DNA of 64,000 nt from assembly GCA_021773395.1 (NCBI GenBank), contig JAJFKB010000014.1, positions 124,001 through 188,000 on the forward strand. The letters are read 5' to 3'. Source of the DNA: Gammaproteobacteria bacterium. GTDB taxonomy: Bacteria; Pseudomonadota; Gammaproteobacteria; Pseudomonadales; IMCC2047. The position numbers were made by a program, and so were the translations under genes. This document shows, one piece after another, positions 23,095 through 29,611 of this stretch (position 1 is its first letter; each line of letters opens with the position of its first letter). The notes beneath the pieces were generated by a model. It did no database searches. It saw only the letters and a program-made list of their open reading frames with translations, and was not told the origin of the DNA.

Positions 23095-25431
23095 ATGAAA
23101 AGAAATTTATTTATACCTCTGATTGTCACTTTAATGATGGCGAGTTGGACACAGCTTGGTATGGCTGATGATTTTACCGTTGCTGATATTCGAATTGAAG
23201 GGTTGCAGCGTGTTTCGGCTGGTTCCCTGTTTCGGGCGTTTCCGGTTAATCTTGGTGATACCGTTAACGAGCAGGTGTTGGTAGATGCCACACGCAGTCT
23301 ATTTAAAACCGGCTTTTTCAATGATATTCAAATTGCACGTGACGAGAATGTACTCATCGTTACGGTGATTGAGCGACCTTCGATTAGCGATATCCAAATC
23401 GATGGTAATAAGGCTATCAAAACGGAGGCGCTACTCGATGGTTTGAAACAGTCGGGGCTGTCGGAAGGTGAAATCTTCAAACGCGCTACACTGGAAGGGT
23501 TGGAGCAGGAGCTTTCCCGTCAATATATCGCGCAAGGTAGATATGGCGTTGATATAGAGACCGATGTTGAAGCGCAACCGCGTAACCGGGTTGCACTTTC
23601 CATCAATATTACAGAAGGGGCTCCCTCTTCTATCAAACAGATTAATATTGTAGGTAATAGTGTCTACGATGATGAGGATCTGTTGGATCTGTTTGAACTA
23701 CGTACAACCAATTGGTTAAGTTTTTATCGCAACGATGATAAGTATTCGCGGGAAAAATTATCGGGTGACTTGGAAAAGCTAAAATCAAAGTATCTGGATA
23801 ACGGATATATTAATTTTAATATTGAATCGACACAGGTCTCAATTACGCCAGACAAAGAGAAAGTTTATATCACGGTCAATTTGGTAGAAGGTGATCAGTT
23901 TACTATTGATCAGGTAACTTTTGCGGGTGACCTGGTGCTGGACGAGGAAGAACTTGAGCAGTTTTTGCTGGTCAAATCGGGTGAAATTTTTTCCAATGAA
24001 CTGCTTACTGTAACAACAGAGGCCTTAACAAATCGCCTGGGTAATGAGGGTTATACCTTTGCCAATGTTAATGGTATTCCCGAGGTCAATGATGAGGATG
24101 ATACGGTAGATATCAGTGTCTTTATCGATCCAGGTAAACGCGCTTATGTTCGGCGTATCAATTTCAAAGGCAATACGAAAACGATTGACGAAGTATTGCG
24201 CCGGGAAATGCGGCAGATGGAATCCGGTTGGGCCTCCAACCAACAGATCGAACTGTCCAAGTTGCGTTTACAGCGACTGGGGTTTTTCAAGGAAGTCAAC
24301 GTCGAAACACCGCAGGTGCCAGGCAGTACAGACCAGATTGATGTTGATTATACCGTTGAAGAGCAGCCTTCGGGCAGCGTAACTGCCAGTCTGGGCTTTG
24401 CGCAGGGTCGAGGCTTGATCCTGGGTGCGGGCGTGAGTCAGAATAATTTCCTTGGGTCCGGAAAGAGAGTTTCCATTGGCCTTAACCGAAGTCGATTCCA
24501 GTCTGCATATAATTTCTCATATCTAGATCCTTATTACACCGTAGATGGCGTAGCGCGAGGTTTTAATCTATTTTATAGAGAGCTTGATTATGACGAGGAT
24601 AATATAGCCAGTTTTACTACCGACTCCTTCGGTGGAGGAGTGTCATTTGGCTATCCGATATCGGAAACCCAGTCGCTGTCTTTCAATATCGGTTATGAAA
24701 ATACTGATATTACCGAGGGCGTATACCCCGTTCTGGAAATATCAGAGTTTTTGGATCTGGAGGGCACCACCTTTAATGAGTTTTTGTTTACAGCATCATG
24801 GCGTCAATCCAGACTTAACCGAGGTGTGTTTGCTACCCGTGGTAGTTCTCAAACTTTAGGCCTGGAACTGGCTGTTCCGGGAAGCGATCTGACCTATTAT
24901 AAGTTAACTTATAAGGGACAGATATTTTTTCCTCTGACACGAAGTTTGACGTTGAGATTGCGCTCAGAGTTGGGTTATGGCGATGCCTATGGTGATTCTA
25001 CAACCTTGCCATTCTATAAACACTTCTTCGCCGGTGGCTTTGACTCTATTCGTGGATTTAAAAATAATGAGTTGGGGCCGCGCAGTACGCCTAGTCCCTT
25101 GGATCCGGATCGAGATTTGGATCCATTCGGCGGTAACTTTCTGGTTACTGGTGGAGTCGATATAATATTCCCATTACCCTTTCTAAAAGATCAACGCTCA
25201 GTGCAGTCGACCCTGTTTGTTGATGCGGGAAATGTATTTAATACCGAATGTCCAAGCGTTAGCGTAAATTGCCTTGACTTCGACGCTGGGGAACTACGCT
25301 TTTCCGTTGGTGTCGGTGCGACATGGCTATCGGGCTTTGGTCCGCTAACCTTTAGTATTGCTCAAGCCTTTAACGAAGGGCCGCTGGACGATACGGAGTT
25401 TTTTCAATTCTCATTTGGCAAAACCTTTTAA
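23095..25431 (+). CDS. bamA: Outer membrane protein assembly factor BamA
   Basis: BamA is the essential Omp85 pore that folds beta-barrel proteins into the outer membrane. The 778-residue precursor has a signal peptide (cleavage after GMA). Five POTRA domains span about residues 25-420, opening with FTVADIRIEGLQRVSAGSLF. A 16-strand barrel contains the loop-6 motif DSIRGFKNNELGP. The C terminus ends in phenylalanine (FGKTF), the usual outer-membrane signal. skp follows after 51 bp. Confidence 0.98.
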   Translation: MKRNLFIPLIVTLMMASWTQLGMADDFTVADIRIEGLQRVSAGSLFRAFPVNLGDTVNEQVLVDATRSLFKTGFFNDIQIARDENVLIVTVIERPSISDIQIDGNKAIKTEALLDGLKQSGLSEGEIFKRATLEGLEQELSRQYIAQGRYGVDIETDVEAQPRNRVALSINITEGAPSSIKQINIVGNSVYDDEDLLDLFELRTTNWLSFYRNDDKYSREKLSGDLEKLKSKYLDNGYINFNIESTQVSITPDKEKVYITVNLVEGDQFTIDQVTFAGDLVLDEEELEQFLLVKSGEIFSNELLTVTTEALTNRLGNEGYTFANVNGIPEVNDEDDTVDISVFIDPGKRAYVRRINFKGNTKTIDEVLRREMRQMESGWASNQQIELSKLRLQRLGFFKEVNVETPQVPGSTDQIDVDYTVEEQPSGSVTASLGFAQGRGLILGAGVSQNNFLGSGKRVSIGLNRSRFQSAYNFSYLDPYYTVDGVARGFNLFYRELDYDEDNIASFTTDSFGGGVSFGYPISETQSLSFNIGYENTDITEGVYPVLEISEFLDLEGTTFNEFLFTASWRQSRLNRGVFATRGSSQTLGLELAVPGSDLTYYKLTYKGQIFFPLTRSLTLRLRSELGYGDAYGDSTTLPFYKHFFAGGFDSIRGFKNNELGPRSTPSPLDPDRDLDPFGGNFLVTGGVDIIFPLPFLKDQRSVQSTLFVDAGNVFNTECPSVSVNCLDFDAGELRFSVGVGATWLSGFGPLTFSIAQAFNEGPLDDTEFFQFSFGKTF

Positions 25432-25482: not shown

Positions 25483-25986
25483 GTGAAGCAATTAATACTA
25501 GGTGTGATTATGTGCGGCCTGATGGGCGCCCAATTGGCAGTAGCGGAAGGTAAAATCGCCGTCATTGATATACAGGCTGCTATTTTAGGCTCGGAACAAG
25601 CGAAAGAAAGAATTGCAGAGTTAAAAAAAGAGTATGCCCCCGATCAAAATGTGATTAAGTCTTTGGCCCAGGATATTCAAAAGCTTCAAGCGAAAATGGA
25701 GCAAGATGCTGCGGTGATGAGCGAAAGTGAAAAGAAAAAGCTGGCAAAGGATGTCGAAGAAAAGGCGGTTGACTATCAGTTCAATATCAAGAAAATCCAG
25801 AAATCTCAAAATGAAAGTCAGCAAGAATTATTGGCAGAGCTGAGCCCCAAATTGGAGGAGGCGATTCAGGAAATTATAAGCGAAGGGACTTATGCCATTA
25901 TTTTGGAAAGAAGAGCCGCAATATTTGTCGCTCCTGAGTACGATATCACTAAAAAGGTGACCGAGAAGCTTAACCTCAAGAGATAA
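25483..25986 (+). CDS. skp: Periplasmic chaperone Skp/OmpH
   Basis: Skp is a trimeric, jellyfish-shaped chaperone that holds unfolded outer-membrane proteins in the periplasm for BamA. The 167-residue precursor starts at GTG after AAGGGGATCAAGA and has a signal peptide ending near AVA. The mature part opens with KIAVIDIQAAILGSEQAK and continues into long charged helices forming the tentacles. The next gene, normally lpxD, is degraded here. Confidence 0.95.
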   Translation: MKQLILGVIMCGLMGAQLAVAEGKIAVIDIQAAILGSEQAKERIAELKKEYAPDQNVIKSLAQDIQKLQAKMEQDAAVMSESEKKKLAKDVEEKAVDYQFNIKKIQKSQNESQQELLAELSPKLEEAIQEIISEGTYAIILERRAAIFVAPEYDITKKVTEKLNLKR

Positions 25987-25995
25987 CTATCGGGG

Positions 25996-26667
25996 GTGAT
26001 GAAAGAAAGTATCCGTTATTCCTTGGCGGAATGGGCATCCTATCTAGACGCTGAGTTAGAAGAGGAGTCTCAGTATGTAACTTTGGTATTATCAGGTTAC
26101 AGAAGGCTGATGCTGGTCATCAGCCTTTTCGCTATTCCTGCATACAGGTCGATACTGGATTATACTCGTGTTTCTACGGTTCCAGTCAGTCGTAAATATG
26201 CAGCCCAACAGTCTTATTTACCCAAACCCCTATCTCGGTTATGCGCGAATTTCGAAGTTATATGAAAGAGTGGCAACCCAGTCGACCGGGAGTGAATAAA
26301 ATTGTAGTGATAGACTGTACTGAGTAGGTCGATCCAATAGCAAGTGTTGGCCCTTAAGCGGAAGTGGCAGAGGGCGCCAGAGTGGTAGTACCCGAATGGG
26401 TTGTGATGCAGAAATGTGGTTGGCAGCACTATTGATTGAGGTTTGCCTAGGGGATGCGGTTATCGGGGAAGGTATAAAATTGATAATCAGGTAATGATCG
26501 CGCATAACGTTAAAATAGGCGATTATACTGCGATAGCCGGTTGTTCCGGAATATCCGGCGGTACAAAAATGGATTAAAACTGAATGTACGCGTCAACTGG
26601 ACAATTTTGCCAAACGTATAAAAAACTGGAAAAACAGCTAAAAGAATTAAAAGGCAATCAGGTATGA
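25996..26667 (+). pseudogene. lpxD: Degraded lpxD (UDP-3-O-acylglucosamine N-acyltransferase)
   Basis: LpxD adds the second acyl chain in lipid A synthesis. Remnants appear in the correct order but in different frames. The N-terminal domain YSLAEWASYLDAELEEES and IPAYRSILDYTR is read from 25996. NPYLGYARISKLYERVATQ is in another frame from 26225, ending at a TAA at 26297. A stop-riddled part recalls CTE-VDPIASVGP and [29 protein letters not shown] is near 26485-26550. The C-terminal coiled coil LDNFAKRI / [14 protein letters not shown] is split by one more frameshift. About 670 bp remain where about 1,020 are expected, so the central left-handed beta-helix is largely deleted. The final TGA still overlaps the fabZ ATG (ATGA), a relic of translational coupling. 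Neighbours skp, fabZ, lpxA and lpxB are intact. Confidence 0.9.
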
Positions 26668-27113
26668 TGAATATCAATGAAATCCGGGAGTATCTGCCCC
26701 ACCGGTACCCATTCTTGCTAGTGGATCGTGTGGTGGAGCTAGAACTAGGGAAGTCTATTGTGGCATATAAAAATGTGACGGTGAATGAAGATTTTTTTAA
26801 TGGACACTTTCCTGATTTCCCAGTAATGCCTGGCGTGTTAATTATCGAAGCCATGGCTCAGGCCGCCGGAATCCTGGGATTCAAAACGGTGGGCAAGAAG
26901 CCAGCCGATGGGTCAATTTATTACTTTGTTGGGGCCGAAAAACTAAGATTTAAGCGTCCAGTTACACCGGGTGACCGATTGCAATTGGAAGCAGCTGTCG
27001 TTGCCGAGAAAAAAGGTATCTGGAAATTTGACTGTAAAGCGACTGTTGAAGGAGAGCTGGTCTGTTCCGGTCTAATCATCTGCGCTGACAGGGAAAAGAA
27101 TATTGATCGATAA
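26664..27113 (+). CDS. fabZ: 3-hydroxyacyl-ACP dehydratase FabZ
   Basis: FabZ dehydrates beta-hydroxyacyl-ACP in fatty acid synthesis and competes with LpxA for hydroxyacyl-ACP. The 149-residue hot-dog-fold protein shows [16 protein letters not shown] near residue 10, the catalytic histidine in [21 protein letters not shown], and the glutamate in the same helix. Length matches E. coli (151). The ATG overlaps the last codon of the lpxD remnant, and its end overlaps the lpxA start by 11 bp. Confidence 0.98.
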
Positions 27114-27873
27114 CACTGCTCGAATTGATCCTTCGGCAAAACTAGGTGCCAATGTTAGCGTAGGTCCCTGGAGTATTATTGGTCCTGATGTTGAGGTGGG
27201 AGACGGTACTGTTATCGGGCCTCACGTTATTCTAAAGGGGCCGACCAAGCTGGGACGAAATAATCAGATTTACCAATTTGCAAGCGTTGGAGAAGACTGC
27301 CAGGATAAAAAATATGCTGGGGAAGCTACGCGGTTGGAAATTGGAGATAATAATATCATTCGCGAAGCCTGTACTATTCATCGCGGAACAGCCCAGGATC
27401 GTGCTGTTACTCATATCGGTAATGATAATCTGTTTATGGTCAACGTCCACATTGCACACGACGTGGTTGTGGGCGATCATTGCATTATAGCCAATAACGC
27501 GGCTGTGGCTGGGCATGTAAAAATTGGTGATTACGCGGTGCTGGGAGGATTTGCCGGGGTTCATCAGTTTTGTCATATTGGCGCTCACAGCATGAGTGGT
27601 GTCGGCAGTGTAATTGTCAAAGATATACCGGCTTTTGTTGTCGTGAGTGGTAATACGGCGGCGTCACATGGCATTAATGTTGAGGGGCTGAGGCGGCGGG
27701 ATTTTTCTAAAGTGGCAATAGCTGCTTTGCAAAAGGCCTATAAAATTATATTTCGCCAGGGGCTGACTGTCGCCGATGCTGTTGCTAACGTAAGATCTCT
27801 TGACTATCAGGGGCCTGAAATTGATATGCTTGTCGAATCTATTCTCAATTCTACACGCGGCATTGTCCGTTAA
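27103..27873 (+). CDS. lpxA: UDP-N-acetylglucosamine O-acyltransferase
   Basis: LpxA transfers a hydroxyacyl chain from ACP to the 3-OH of UDP-GlcNAc, the first step of lipid A synthesis. The 256-residue protein is a trimeric left-handed beta-helix of hexapeptide repeats. The catalytic histidine lies in [12 protein letters not shown], and the helical C-terminal domain begins at GLRRRDFSK. The start is TTG inside the end of fabZ ([15 protein letters not shown]), which aligns with the family N terminus. It is intact, in contrast to lpxD upstream. Confidence 0.97.
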
Positions 27874-27893: not shown

Positions 27894-29036
27894 GTGCGTC
27901 CTCTACGTATCGGCATTGTCGCAGGTGAAGCTTCGGGCGACTTACTAGGTGCCGGGTTGATTGCGGCTATAAAAACTGCTTATCCTGATACTGTTTTCGA
28001 AGGTATTGGCGGCCCGAAAATGATGGCCTTGGGTTTTGATTCCCATGTTCCGATGGAAAGGCTTTCAGTAATGGGGCTATTTGAAGTATTGGGCAGGCTG
28101 TTTGAGTTGCTGGGTATTCGTCGTCGTCTGAAAAATTACTTTGTGAAGAATCCTCCTGATGTATTTATAGGTATTGATGCACCTGACTTTACGCTGGTTT
28201 TGGAGCGCCAGTTGAAAATGGCCGGTATTAAAACAGTGCATTATGTCAGCCCGCAGATATGGGCATGGCGTCAGGGTAGAGTGAAGCATATTGTTCGATG
28301 TGCAGATCTAATGTTGGCGTTATTCCCCTTTGAGAAGGAATTTTATCGGGAACATGGTATGTCGGTAGAATTTGTAGGGCATCCACTTGCAGATCAGATT
28401 CCATTTGAAAGTGAAAAACATACGCCTCGGGTTGACTTTGATTTGTCTGAAAAAGATAGTGTGTTGGCTTTGTTGCCAGGTAGTCGTATGAGTGAAGTTG
28501 GCCGATTGACTGCCACCTTCCTGGAAACCGCGCTATGGTGTCAGCGGCATCAACCCAACTGTAAAATCTTGGTAGCTGCCGTTAATTCTGCGGTAGCGGA
28601 TACCATTAAGGCAGAGTTGACAGCCTATCCGCAGCTAAAGAATGTACAGGTGATCAGCGAGCAAGCTCGTAAGGTGATGGCGGCTGCGGACGCATTGCTG
28701 GTGGCTTCGGGGACGGTAACGCTGGAGGCCATGCTTATTAAACGTCCTATGGTGGTTGCCTACAAAGTTGCGCCACTAACCTTTAAAGTCGTATCACGAC
28801 TGGTGAAAACAGATTTTATTGCGTTACCGAACCTCCTGGCTGAATGCGCTTTGGTACCTGAGTTTATTCAAGATGAGGCTATCCCGGAGCGTATCGGACC
28901 GGTGCTGTTAGACTATCTTAATCACGGAGCATCGTGTGAAATACAATTTGGCAAGTTTATGGAAATCCACAAGCAATTGGCGCAGGGAGCGAGTGACCGG
29001 GCTGCACAAGCCATATTGAAGTTGGTGGGACGGTAA
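27894..29036 (+). CDS. lpxB: Lipid-A-disaccharide synthase
   Basis: LpxB joins UDP-2,3-diacylglucosamine and lipid X to form the disaccharide of lipid A, a peripheral inner-membrane GT19 glycosyltransferase. The 380-residue product begins at GTG with [19 protein letters not shown] and carries [39 protein letters not shown] and [10 protein letters not shown], all family hallmarks. Its stop overlaps the rnhB ATG (TAATG). Confidence 0.97.
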
Positions 29037-29611
29037 TGGATTTTCTTGATGTTGAGGGCGTCGCTGGAACAGATGAAGTGGGCAGAGGGCCGCTCGCGGG
29101 CGCGGTCGTTGCTGCGGCGGTAATTTTAGATAGTAATCAGCCTATAGTTGGGCTAAAGGATTCAAAAAAACTGTCAGAGAAAAAAAGGGAGTCGCTGGCA
29201 GAGGAAATTAAGGAAAAAGCAATTTGTTGGTGTATTGCTCGTGCCGAAGTTGAAGAAATTGATCAAATTAATATACTACAGGCAAGTCTATTAGCCATGC
29301 GTCGTGCAGTTTTGGGCCTGAGCGTCGAGCCCCGCCAGGTGCTGGTTGATGGCAGGCATTGCCCTAGCTTGGAATATCCCGTTCAGGCGATTGTTAAAGG
29401 AGATTCCCTGGTGCCCGCAATCAGTGCAGCGTCGATTCTGGCCAAGGTAGCGAGAGACGGCGAGATGATGGCACTCGATGAAATCTATCCTGGTTATGGG
29501 CTGGCCAAACATAAGGGCTATCCTACTGCAGCCCATCTGGCTGCTTTACTTCGGCTAGGTCCTTCGCCGATTCATCGACGTTCTTTTGCACCGGTTAAAA
29601 AATTGTTATAA
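29036..29611 (+). CDS. rnhB: Ribonuclease HII
   Basis: RNase HII removes ribonucleotides and RNA primers from DNA-RNA hybrids. The 191-residue protein has the DEDD catalytic set: [23 protein letters not shown] (Asp-Glu) near residue 9, LVDGRHCP (Asp) near residue 103, and an aspartate in [11 protein letters not shown] near residue 140. Translation is coupled to lpxB by a one-base overlap. dnaE follows, the conserved lpxB-rnhB-dnaE order. Confidence 0.97.

Follow-up and report, generated by a model that had tools for sequence, protein, structure and literature searches.

The lipid A operon in the 64,000-nucleotide stretch of gammaproteobacterial DNA analysed here (the window) raises the question of what has become of its lpxD, a gene ordinarily required for making outer-membrane lipid A, and which protein would carry out the corresponding acylation. 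The initial annotation described the segment between skp and fabZ as an lpxD pseudogene inside an otherwise intact operon, and this is confirmed by comparison with relatives: window positions 25996-26667 are what is left of the lpxD native to this operon, now a pseudogene. It is very likely that this gene died after the split from the same-genus genome G001, and that its reaction was taken over by a divergent LpxD, referred to here as type 2, encoded on contig C12 of the same genome (G000). The remnant consists of the following features.

25996..26667, forward strand: lpxD pseudogene, the ancestral operon copy, recognised by its short interval, gaps, stops in all frames and codon-position mismatch ratio
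25999..26202, forward strand: remnant of LpxD residues 1-69 (N-terminal domain) in frame 1; tblastn with G001 LpxD, 35% over 69 residues
26207..26266, forward strand: remnant of LpxD residues 74-93 in frame 2; tblastn with G001 LpxD, 60% over 20 residues
26425..26580, forward strand: remnant of LpxD residues 215-266 in frame 1; tblastn, 54% and E 2.6e-14 with G001, 57% and E 7.5e-15 with G003
26610..26667, forward strand: lpxD 3' end adjoining the fabZ start, with the ATGA overlap; base alignment to G001 and sequence

The interval from the skp stop to the fabZ start measures 677 bp in the window as opposed to 1,052 bp in G001, where it is filled by an intact 347-codon lpxD, a net loss of 375 bp. 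As had been proposed, the LpxD pieces lie in the same order as in the protein and are broken by stops, which occur in every frame, and the central part is mostly missing, since searching in pieces with tblastn gave no firm match in the remnant to about residues 94-214. The proposal that the pieces occupy at least three frames holds firmly for two of them, while the third is represented by a weak match to residues 99-132 (E 0.07 with G001, 0.008 with G003). The histidine of the AHNV motif sits in the piece at 26425..26580, and the end of lpxD still overlaps the fabZ start codon in the ATGA at 26664-26667, as first noted; this 3' end has perhaps been retained for fabZ translation.

A base alignment of the remnant with G001 lpxD scores 248.5, whereas 50 shuffles reach at most 85, and it contains 392 deleted and 17 inserted bases. 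Its 42 gaps, 30 of which are not multiples of three, are not a count of mutations, as part of them arises from aligning decayed sequence and even the intact lpxB, aligned in this way, shows 17 small gaps. The remnant resembles the type-2 LpxD of its own genome (37.5% over 32 residues, E 7e-5), but the canonical LpxDs of relatives match better, and therefore it represents the ancestral operon gene. What relatives hold at this place is not a conserved open reading frame of the remnant's own sequence, which the initial annotation had named as the finding that would speak against decay, but an intact lpxD at the same skp-fabZ position in all three same-family relatives compared (G001, G002 and G003). 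Mismatches to G001 at the first two codon positions, divided by those at the third, give a ratio of 0.50 in the remnant and of 0.13-0.39 in seven neighbouring genes. The third-position excess that the remnant still displays suggests that lpxD remained under constraint for some while after the two genomes separated, and hence that the loss postdates the split from G001.

The surrounding genes, compared with G001, show none of this decay, and the initial view that lpxA, fabZ and lpxB are intact is upheld. They are arranged as follows.

23095..25431, forward strand: bamA, intact; 778-aa ORF, 86% identity to G001, ratio 0.18; named by eye
25483..25986, forward strand: skp, intact; 167-aa ORF, 75% identity to G001, gap-free base alignment, ratio 0.27; named by eye
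26664..27113, forward strand: fabZ, intact; 149-aa ORF, 90% identity to G001, ratio 0.13
27103..27873, forward strand: canonical lpxA, intact; TIGR01852 score 315 against a cut-off of 231, ratio 0.21 and 81% identity to G001
27894..29036, forward strand: lpxB, intact; Pfam LpxB 361 bits, ratio 0.34 to G001
29036..29611, forward strand: rnhB, intact; 191-aa ORF, 77% identity to G001, ratio 0.27; named by eye

The seventh neighbour, rseP, has a ratio of 0.39, and of the genes compared lpxD alone is decayed. In the PDB, the operon lpxA best matches 5dem, presumably the LpxA of P. aeruginosa, with 342 bits, as against 172 bits for 3hsq, and the gene keeps histidine motifs that we take to be catalytic.

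An operon with a dead lpxD and functional-looking partners had led to the expectation of a second LpxD elsewhere, either a paralogue or a transferred copy, and a profile search of the assembly found one. A single protein exceeds the cut-off of TIGR01853, the NCBIfam equivalog model, with about 282 bits (281.7-282.1) against 242.5, and it is encoded by a stop-free ORF of 344 aa on contig C12. Its best PDB matches are LpxDs, 3eh0 among them, and its H250 and H287, which align with E. coli H239 and H276 (presumably the residue numbers of the catalytic histidines), are present in 42 of 42 type-2 rows. Thus, the type-2 protein resembles known LpxD (UDP-3-O-acyl-glucosamine N-acyltransferase; PDB 3eh0, 2iu8) in equivalog score, length, hexapeptide repeats and aligned catalytic histidines, and is a putative LpxD N-acyltransferase. 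It differs from canonical LpxD in forming a separate clade, in its identity of 27-32% to the LpxDs of G001, G002 and G003, in having NVR in place of the NPY motif of the N-domain, and in a histidine at position 247, which occurs in 42/42 type-2 rows, whereas canonical rows have mostly Q (59/84) and in part H (14/84). The N-terminal domain as a whole is divergent, scoring 24.9-28.1 bits with Pfam PF04613, under the cut-off of 30.8. No recognisable lpx gene lies near the type-2 gene (lpxD2) in the window's genome, and across 42 type-2 loci no neighbour, LpxD itself aside, is common to more than five. A recent transfer of lpxD2 was also judged by base composition and gave no signal, GC and GC3 being like those of the host.

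The type-2 proteins form a distinct group in two trees. Removal of duplicates reduced the LpxD rows from 145 to 126, and two fragments and eight Acinetobacter rows were removed before a quick tree of 116 LpxDs was built, in which a branch with a support of 99 separates 41 type-2 rows and two Bdellovibrionota rows from all others. In a careful tree of 47 rows, built after taking out fragments, most of the canonical rows and four that were long or uncertain, the 39 type-2 rows make up one clade (support 100/99). Type-2 LpxD was found in two of 38 genomes, comprising the window's own and 37 relatives, namely in the window's genome and in G001, and in six of 276 genomes of the class, with the window's genome counted. 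Outside the class, four uncultured Leptospiraceae/Leptospirales genomes have type-2 members, and viral contigs yielded two partial relatives at 34%. Two type-2 LpxDs from records titled Klebsiella pneumoniae MAG (L092) and Synechococcales MAG (L090) group with Nevskiaceae and Methylococcaceae rows, and these record names may be wrong.

G001 carries a type-2 copy in addition to the canonical lpxD in its operon. Vertical inheritance of type-2 LpxD as a gene of the genus was considered and rejected, as an AU test rejects the copies of G000 and G001 as sisters (p 0.0002); the two copies also have different surroundings. Separate acquisitions, or an old paralogy with losses, remain. The G000 copy has different neighbours in the 116-row and the 47-row trees, and a donor is therefore left unnamed. 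As a separate observation, G026 has a second full-scoring LpxD of canonical type outside the lpx operon besides its operon copy (L036 6814-7863, L035 6119-7162), and this extra gene adjoins one read as ppsA.

What a completed replacement looks like can be seen in genomes that have the type-2 protein as their only LpxD. A search with the LpxD model found a single LpxD over the cut-off in 22 of 38 type-2 genomes. Among the 22 are the window's genome and two isolates, Methylococcus capsulatus Texas (G073) and Methylocaldum sp. 14B (G045); many of the rest are bins from metagenomes, where a missing gene says less. Leaving aside the window's genome, we read the sequence ahead of fabZ in eight of the 22, and in all eight fabZ comes after skp or an ORF resembling it, at a spacing of 47-191 bp, with no lpxD between them. 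These eight are the Methylococcaceae G045, G050, G051, G057, G061 and G073, together with G056 and the Arenicellaceae genome G069, and they are spread over three distinct branches of the type-2 tree; the skp ORF was named by BLAST in four of them and by position and look in G056, G057, G069 and G073. A search of the eight junctions for lpxD remnants gave no same-strand match, and the G057 junction gave two weak antisense matches (E 0.01-0.04). Both M. capsulatus and Methylocaldum keep lpxA and fabZ, and their lpxB lies in the lpxA2 cluster. In the four genomes with both LpxD types whose operon was read (G001, G039, G040 and G046), lpxD stands between skp and fabZ. Since the operon lpxD is gone in the type-2-only genomes whose operon was read and present in those four with both types, the window's genome looks like an intermediate, a half-way stage of lpxD replacement.

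The genome of the window encodes further candidates for an unusual lipid A. A second lpxA (lpxA2) is located on contig C7, and a tandem of GFO_IDH_MocA (gnnA) and DegT (gnnB) genes on contig C17, with 58% and 61% identity to the Methylococcus pair. LpxA2 finds its best PDB match in 3hsq, which we take to be the Leptospira LpxA selective for UDP-GlcNAc3N, with 184 bits versus 171 for 1lxa. Similarly, GnnA best matches 7bvj, presumably the Acidithiobacillus GnnA, and GnnB best matches 7b0d, followed by the aminotransferase WbpE; GnnA scores 215 bits with NF040723 (UDP-GlcNAc 3-dehydrogenase), under the cut-off of 450. All four family genomes searched have lpxA2, the other three copies being 63-74% identical to that of the window's genome. 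In M. capsulatus, the second lpxA is followed by gnnA (GFO_IDH_MocA), gnnB (DegT) and lpxB, and a canonical-type lpxA exists beside it, so that this isolate has two LpxAs and one LpxD. The initial suggestion of an altered lipid A thus gains candidate genes, with gnnA, gnnB and the second lpxA all pointing towards it, and at this gene level an altered lipid A in the window's organism is likely.

The association between type-2 LpxD and gnnA extends beyond single genomes. A gnnA match (E up to 1e-35) was found in 29 of 32 genomes with type-2 LpxD, taken from the 38 such genomes and picked by that very gene, versus four of 15 without it, taken from 36 relatives (p 2e-5), although matches reach down to about 40% identity and some are perhaps not true GnnA. 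In the class-wide draw, searched at E up to 1e-60, all six type-2 genomes have a gnnA match versus 95 of 270 others (Fisher p 0.0022), and the two samples are not independent, for two of the six share a genus and three are also among the 32, namely G000 and two with the same coordinates as G047 and G066. Exceptions occur in both directions. Type-2 LpxD is present and a gnnA match absent in G001 (83% complete), G052 and G061, the last of which has type 2 as its only LpxD and gave no lpxA2-like match either; conversely, G002, G003, G010 and G012 have gnnA without type-2 LpxD, and in G010 and G012 a gnnA-gnnB pair occurs with a canonical LpxD. Therefore, the tie between type-2 LpxD and diamino lipid A is not strict.

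Taken as a replacement for the operon enzyme, the type-2 LpxD would N-acylate the LpxC product that derives from the operon LpxA, and it would also acylate the product of the second LpxA, fed by GnnA and GnnB. The outcome would be a lipid A with some 2,3-diamino-2,3-dideoxyglucose, and an enzyme that covers both streams could have made the operon lpxD redundant and open to decay. We infer a single LpxD for both LpxA streams because the operon lpxA is constrained and because of the two LpxAs and one LpxD of M. capsulatus. A wider reading, which we put forward tentatively, is that type-2 LpxD may be a horizontally moving class that is tied to a module for diamino-sugar lipid A and has, on repeated occasions, taken the place of the operon lpxD. 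The window would then hold a half-decayed intermediate, and one type-2 LpxD would now serve two LpxAs and give rise to lipid A whose position-3 chains are a mixture of ester and amide.

A different view of the same genes is a switch of the backbone, in which lipid A would be made solely from the diamino sugar by GnnA, GnnB, LpxA2 and type-2 LpxD, while the glucosamine branch that starts with the operon lpxA is dying and lpxD was its first casualty. The intact candidate genes of the diamino route and the occurrence of lpxA2 in the rest of the family genomes searched are compatible with this. However, the constraint on the operon lpxA and its retained histidine motifs indicate that its product seems to be used, and the canonical-type lpxA beside lpxA2 in M. 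capsulatus points the same way, which makes a complete switch unlikely.

Less probable still is that the C12 protein acylates another nucleotide sugar and is not an LpxD for lipid A. Its divergent N-terminal domain and its gene surroundings, with no lpx gene recognised nearby and any one neighbour recurring in at most five of the 42 type-2 loci, would fit such a role, but the protein passes the LpxD equivalog cut-off, its best structural matches are LpxDs, and M. capsulatus and Methylocaldum, which have kept lpxA, fabZ and lpxB, yielded no LpxD other than one of this type.

The remaining doubts concern the assembly. Although rated 98.9% complete, the assembly of the window's genome gave no match to lpxC, to ftsZ, for which the same search was positive in three other genomes, or to secA, which was searched in that genome alone with no positive control. 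As ftsZ and secA are absent alongside lpxC, the absence of lpxC looks like an assembly gap, and several genes are probably missing at the division cluster. For the same reason, it is not fully certain that the genome lacks a second canonical lpxD, and this incompleteness is what could be said for an intact lpxD in the unassembled part, or for an artefact at the locus. Both are highly improbable. Sequencing error, which the initial annotation had called unlikely because of several independent lesions, is disfavoured by the net loss of 375 bp, the many frame-breaking gaps, the relaxed codon pattern and the intact neighbours, and the clean loss in Methylococcaceae suggests that an operon lpxD is dispensable when type 2 is present.

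That lipid A has been wholly lost and the remaining lpx genes are relics is scarcely credible, for the missing lpxC and the dead canonical lpxD that might suggest it are set against the probable gap shared with ftsZ and secA, the constraint on lpxA, lpxB and fabZ, the intact LpxD on C12 and an intact lptD. The last is an 871-codon frame, and together with the constrained lpxA and lpxB it favours lipid A still being made; the same search gave no lptD match in the less complete G001 and G003. A separate case is the order-level relative G011, rated 100% complete, in which no matches to lpxA, lpxC or lpxD were found and lptD is present. On its contig C28 (L200), an M23 peptidase and secA come after ftsZ, and no lpxC match lies in between; G011 is possibly a gammaproteobacterium without the early lipid A steps.

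Replacement and duplication of lipid A genes have precedents. LpxH and LpxI replace one another, lpxH2 and lpxL have been lost, and lpxA and lpxD have been independently duplicated (PMC3087551, in the passages available). These are likewise non-orthologous or paralogous replacements in the same pathway, whereas displacement of the operon lpxD does not appear in those passages (PMC3087551). Francisella and Leptospira have LpxD1/LpxD2 pairs, which in Francisella deal with different acyl chains (PMC10248169, in the part available). Two lpxD genes are likewise found here, but the operon copy is a pseudogene and one LpxD is left; the likeness lies in gene number and does not imply that those LpxD2s belong to type 2. 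In the open-licence PMC literature, no report of an operon lpxD displaced by a type-2 LpxD was found.

The analysis goes beyond the initial annotation by identifying the replacement, by finding that it recurs and by noting the diamino-lipid-A genes that accompany it. An lpxD replacement seems to be caught half-way in this operon, and its end state is visible in Methylococcus. This predicts which bacteria depend on a divergent LpxD that might escape inhibitors directed at the canonical enzyme, and it becomes directly testable whether LpxD type goes with diamino-sugar lipid A.

The reactions of GnnA, GnnB and LpxA that lead to 2,3-diaminoglucose lipid A have been described with rhizobial examples (PMC5644692, in the part available). 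The window's genome shares with this pathway a candidate GnnA-GnnB pair and a Leptospira-like LpxA, and differs in that gnnA-gnnB, lpxA2 and lpxD2 lie on three contigs outside the window, beside a canonical lpxA-lpxB operon with a dead lpxD. The gene context of gnnA offers two smaller observations. It stands near a gene read as topA in G003 (L232 7057-8028), in G002 (L239 3-668) and on C17 of the window's genome (L231); in G003 no gnnB follows it, and gnnA is probably ancestral in the family. In addition, a lone GnnA-like gene with no adjoining gnnB is placed directly before lpxB in G039 (L236 6559-8680) and in G038 (L235 5552-7755).
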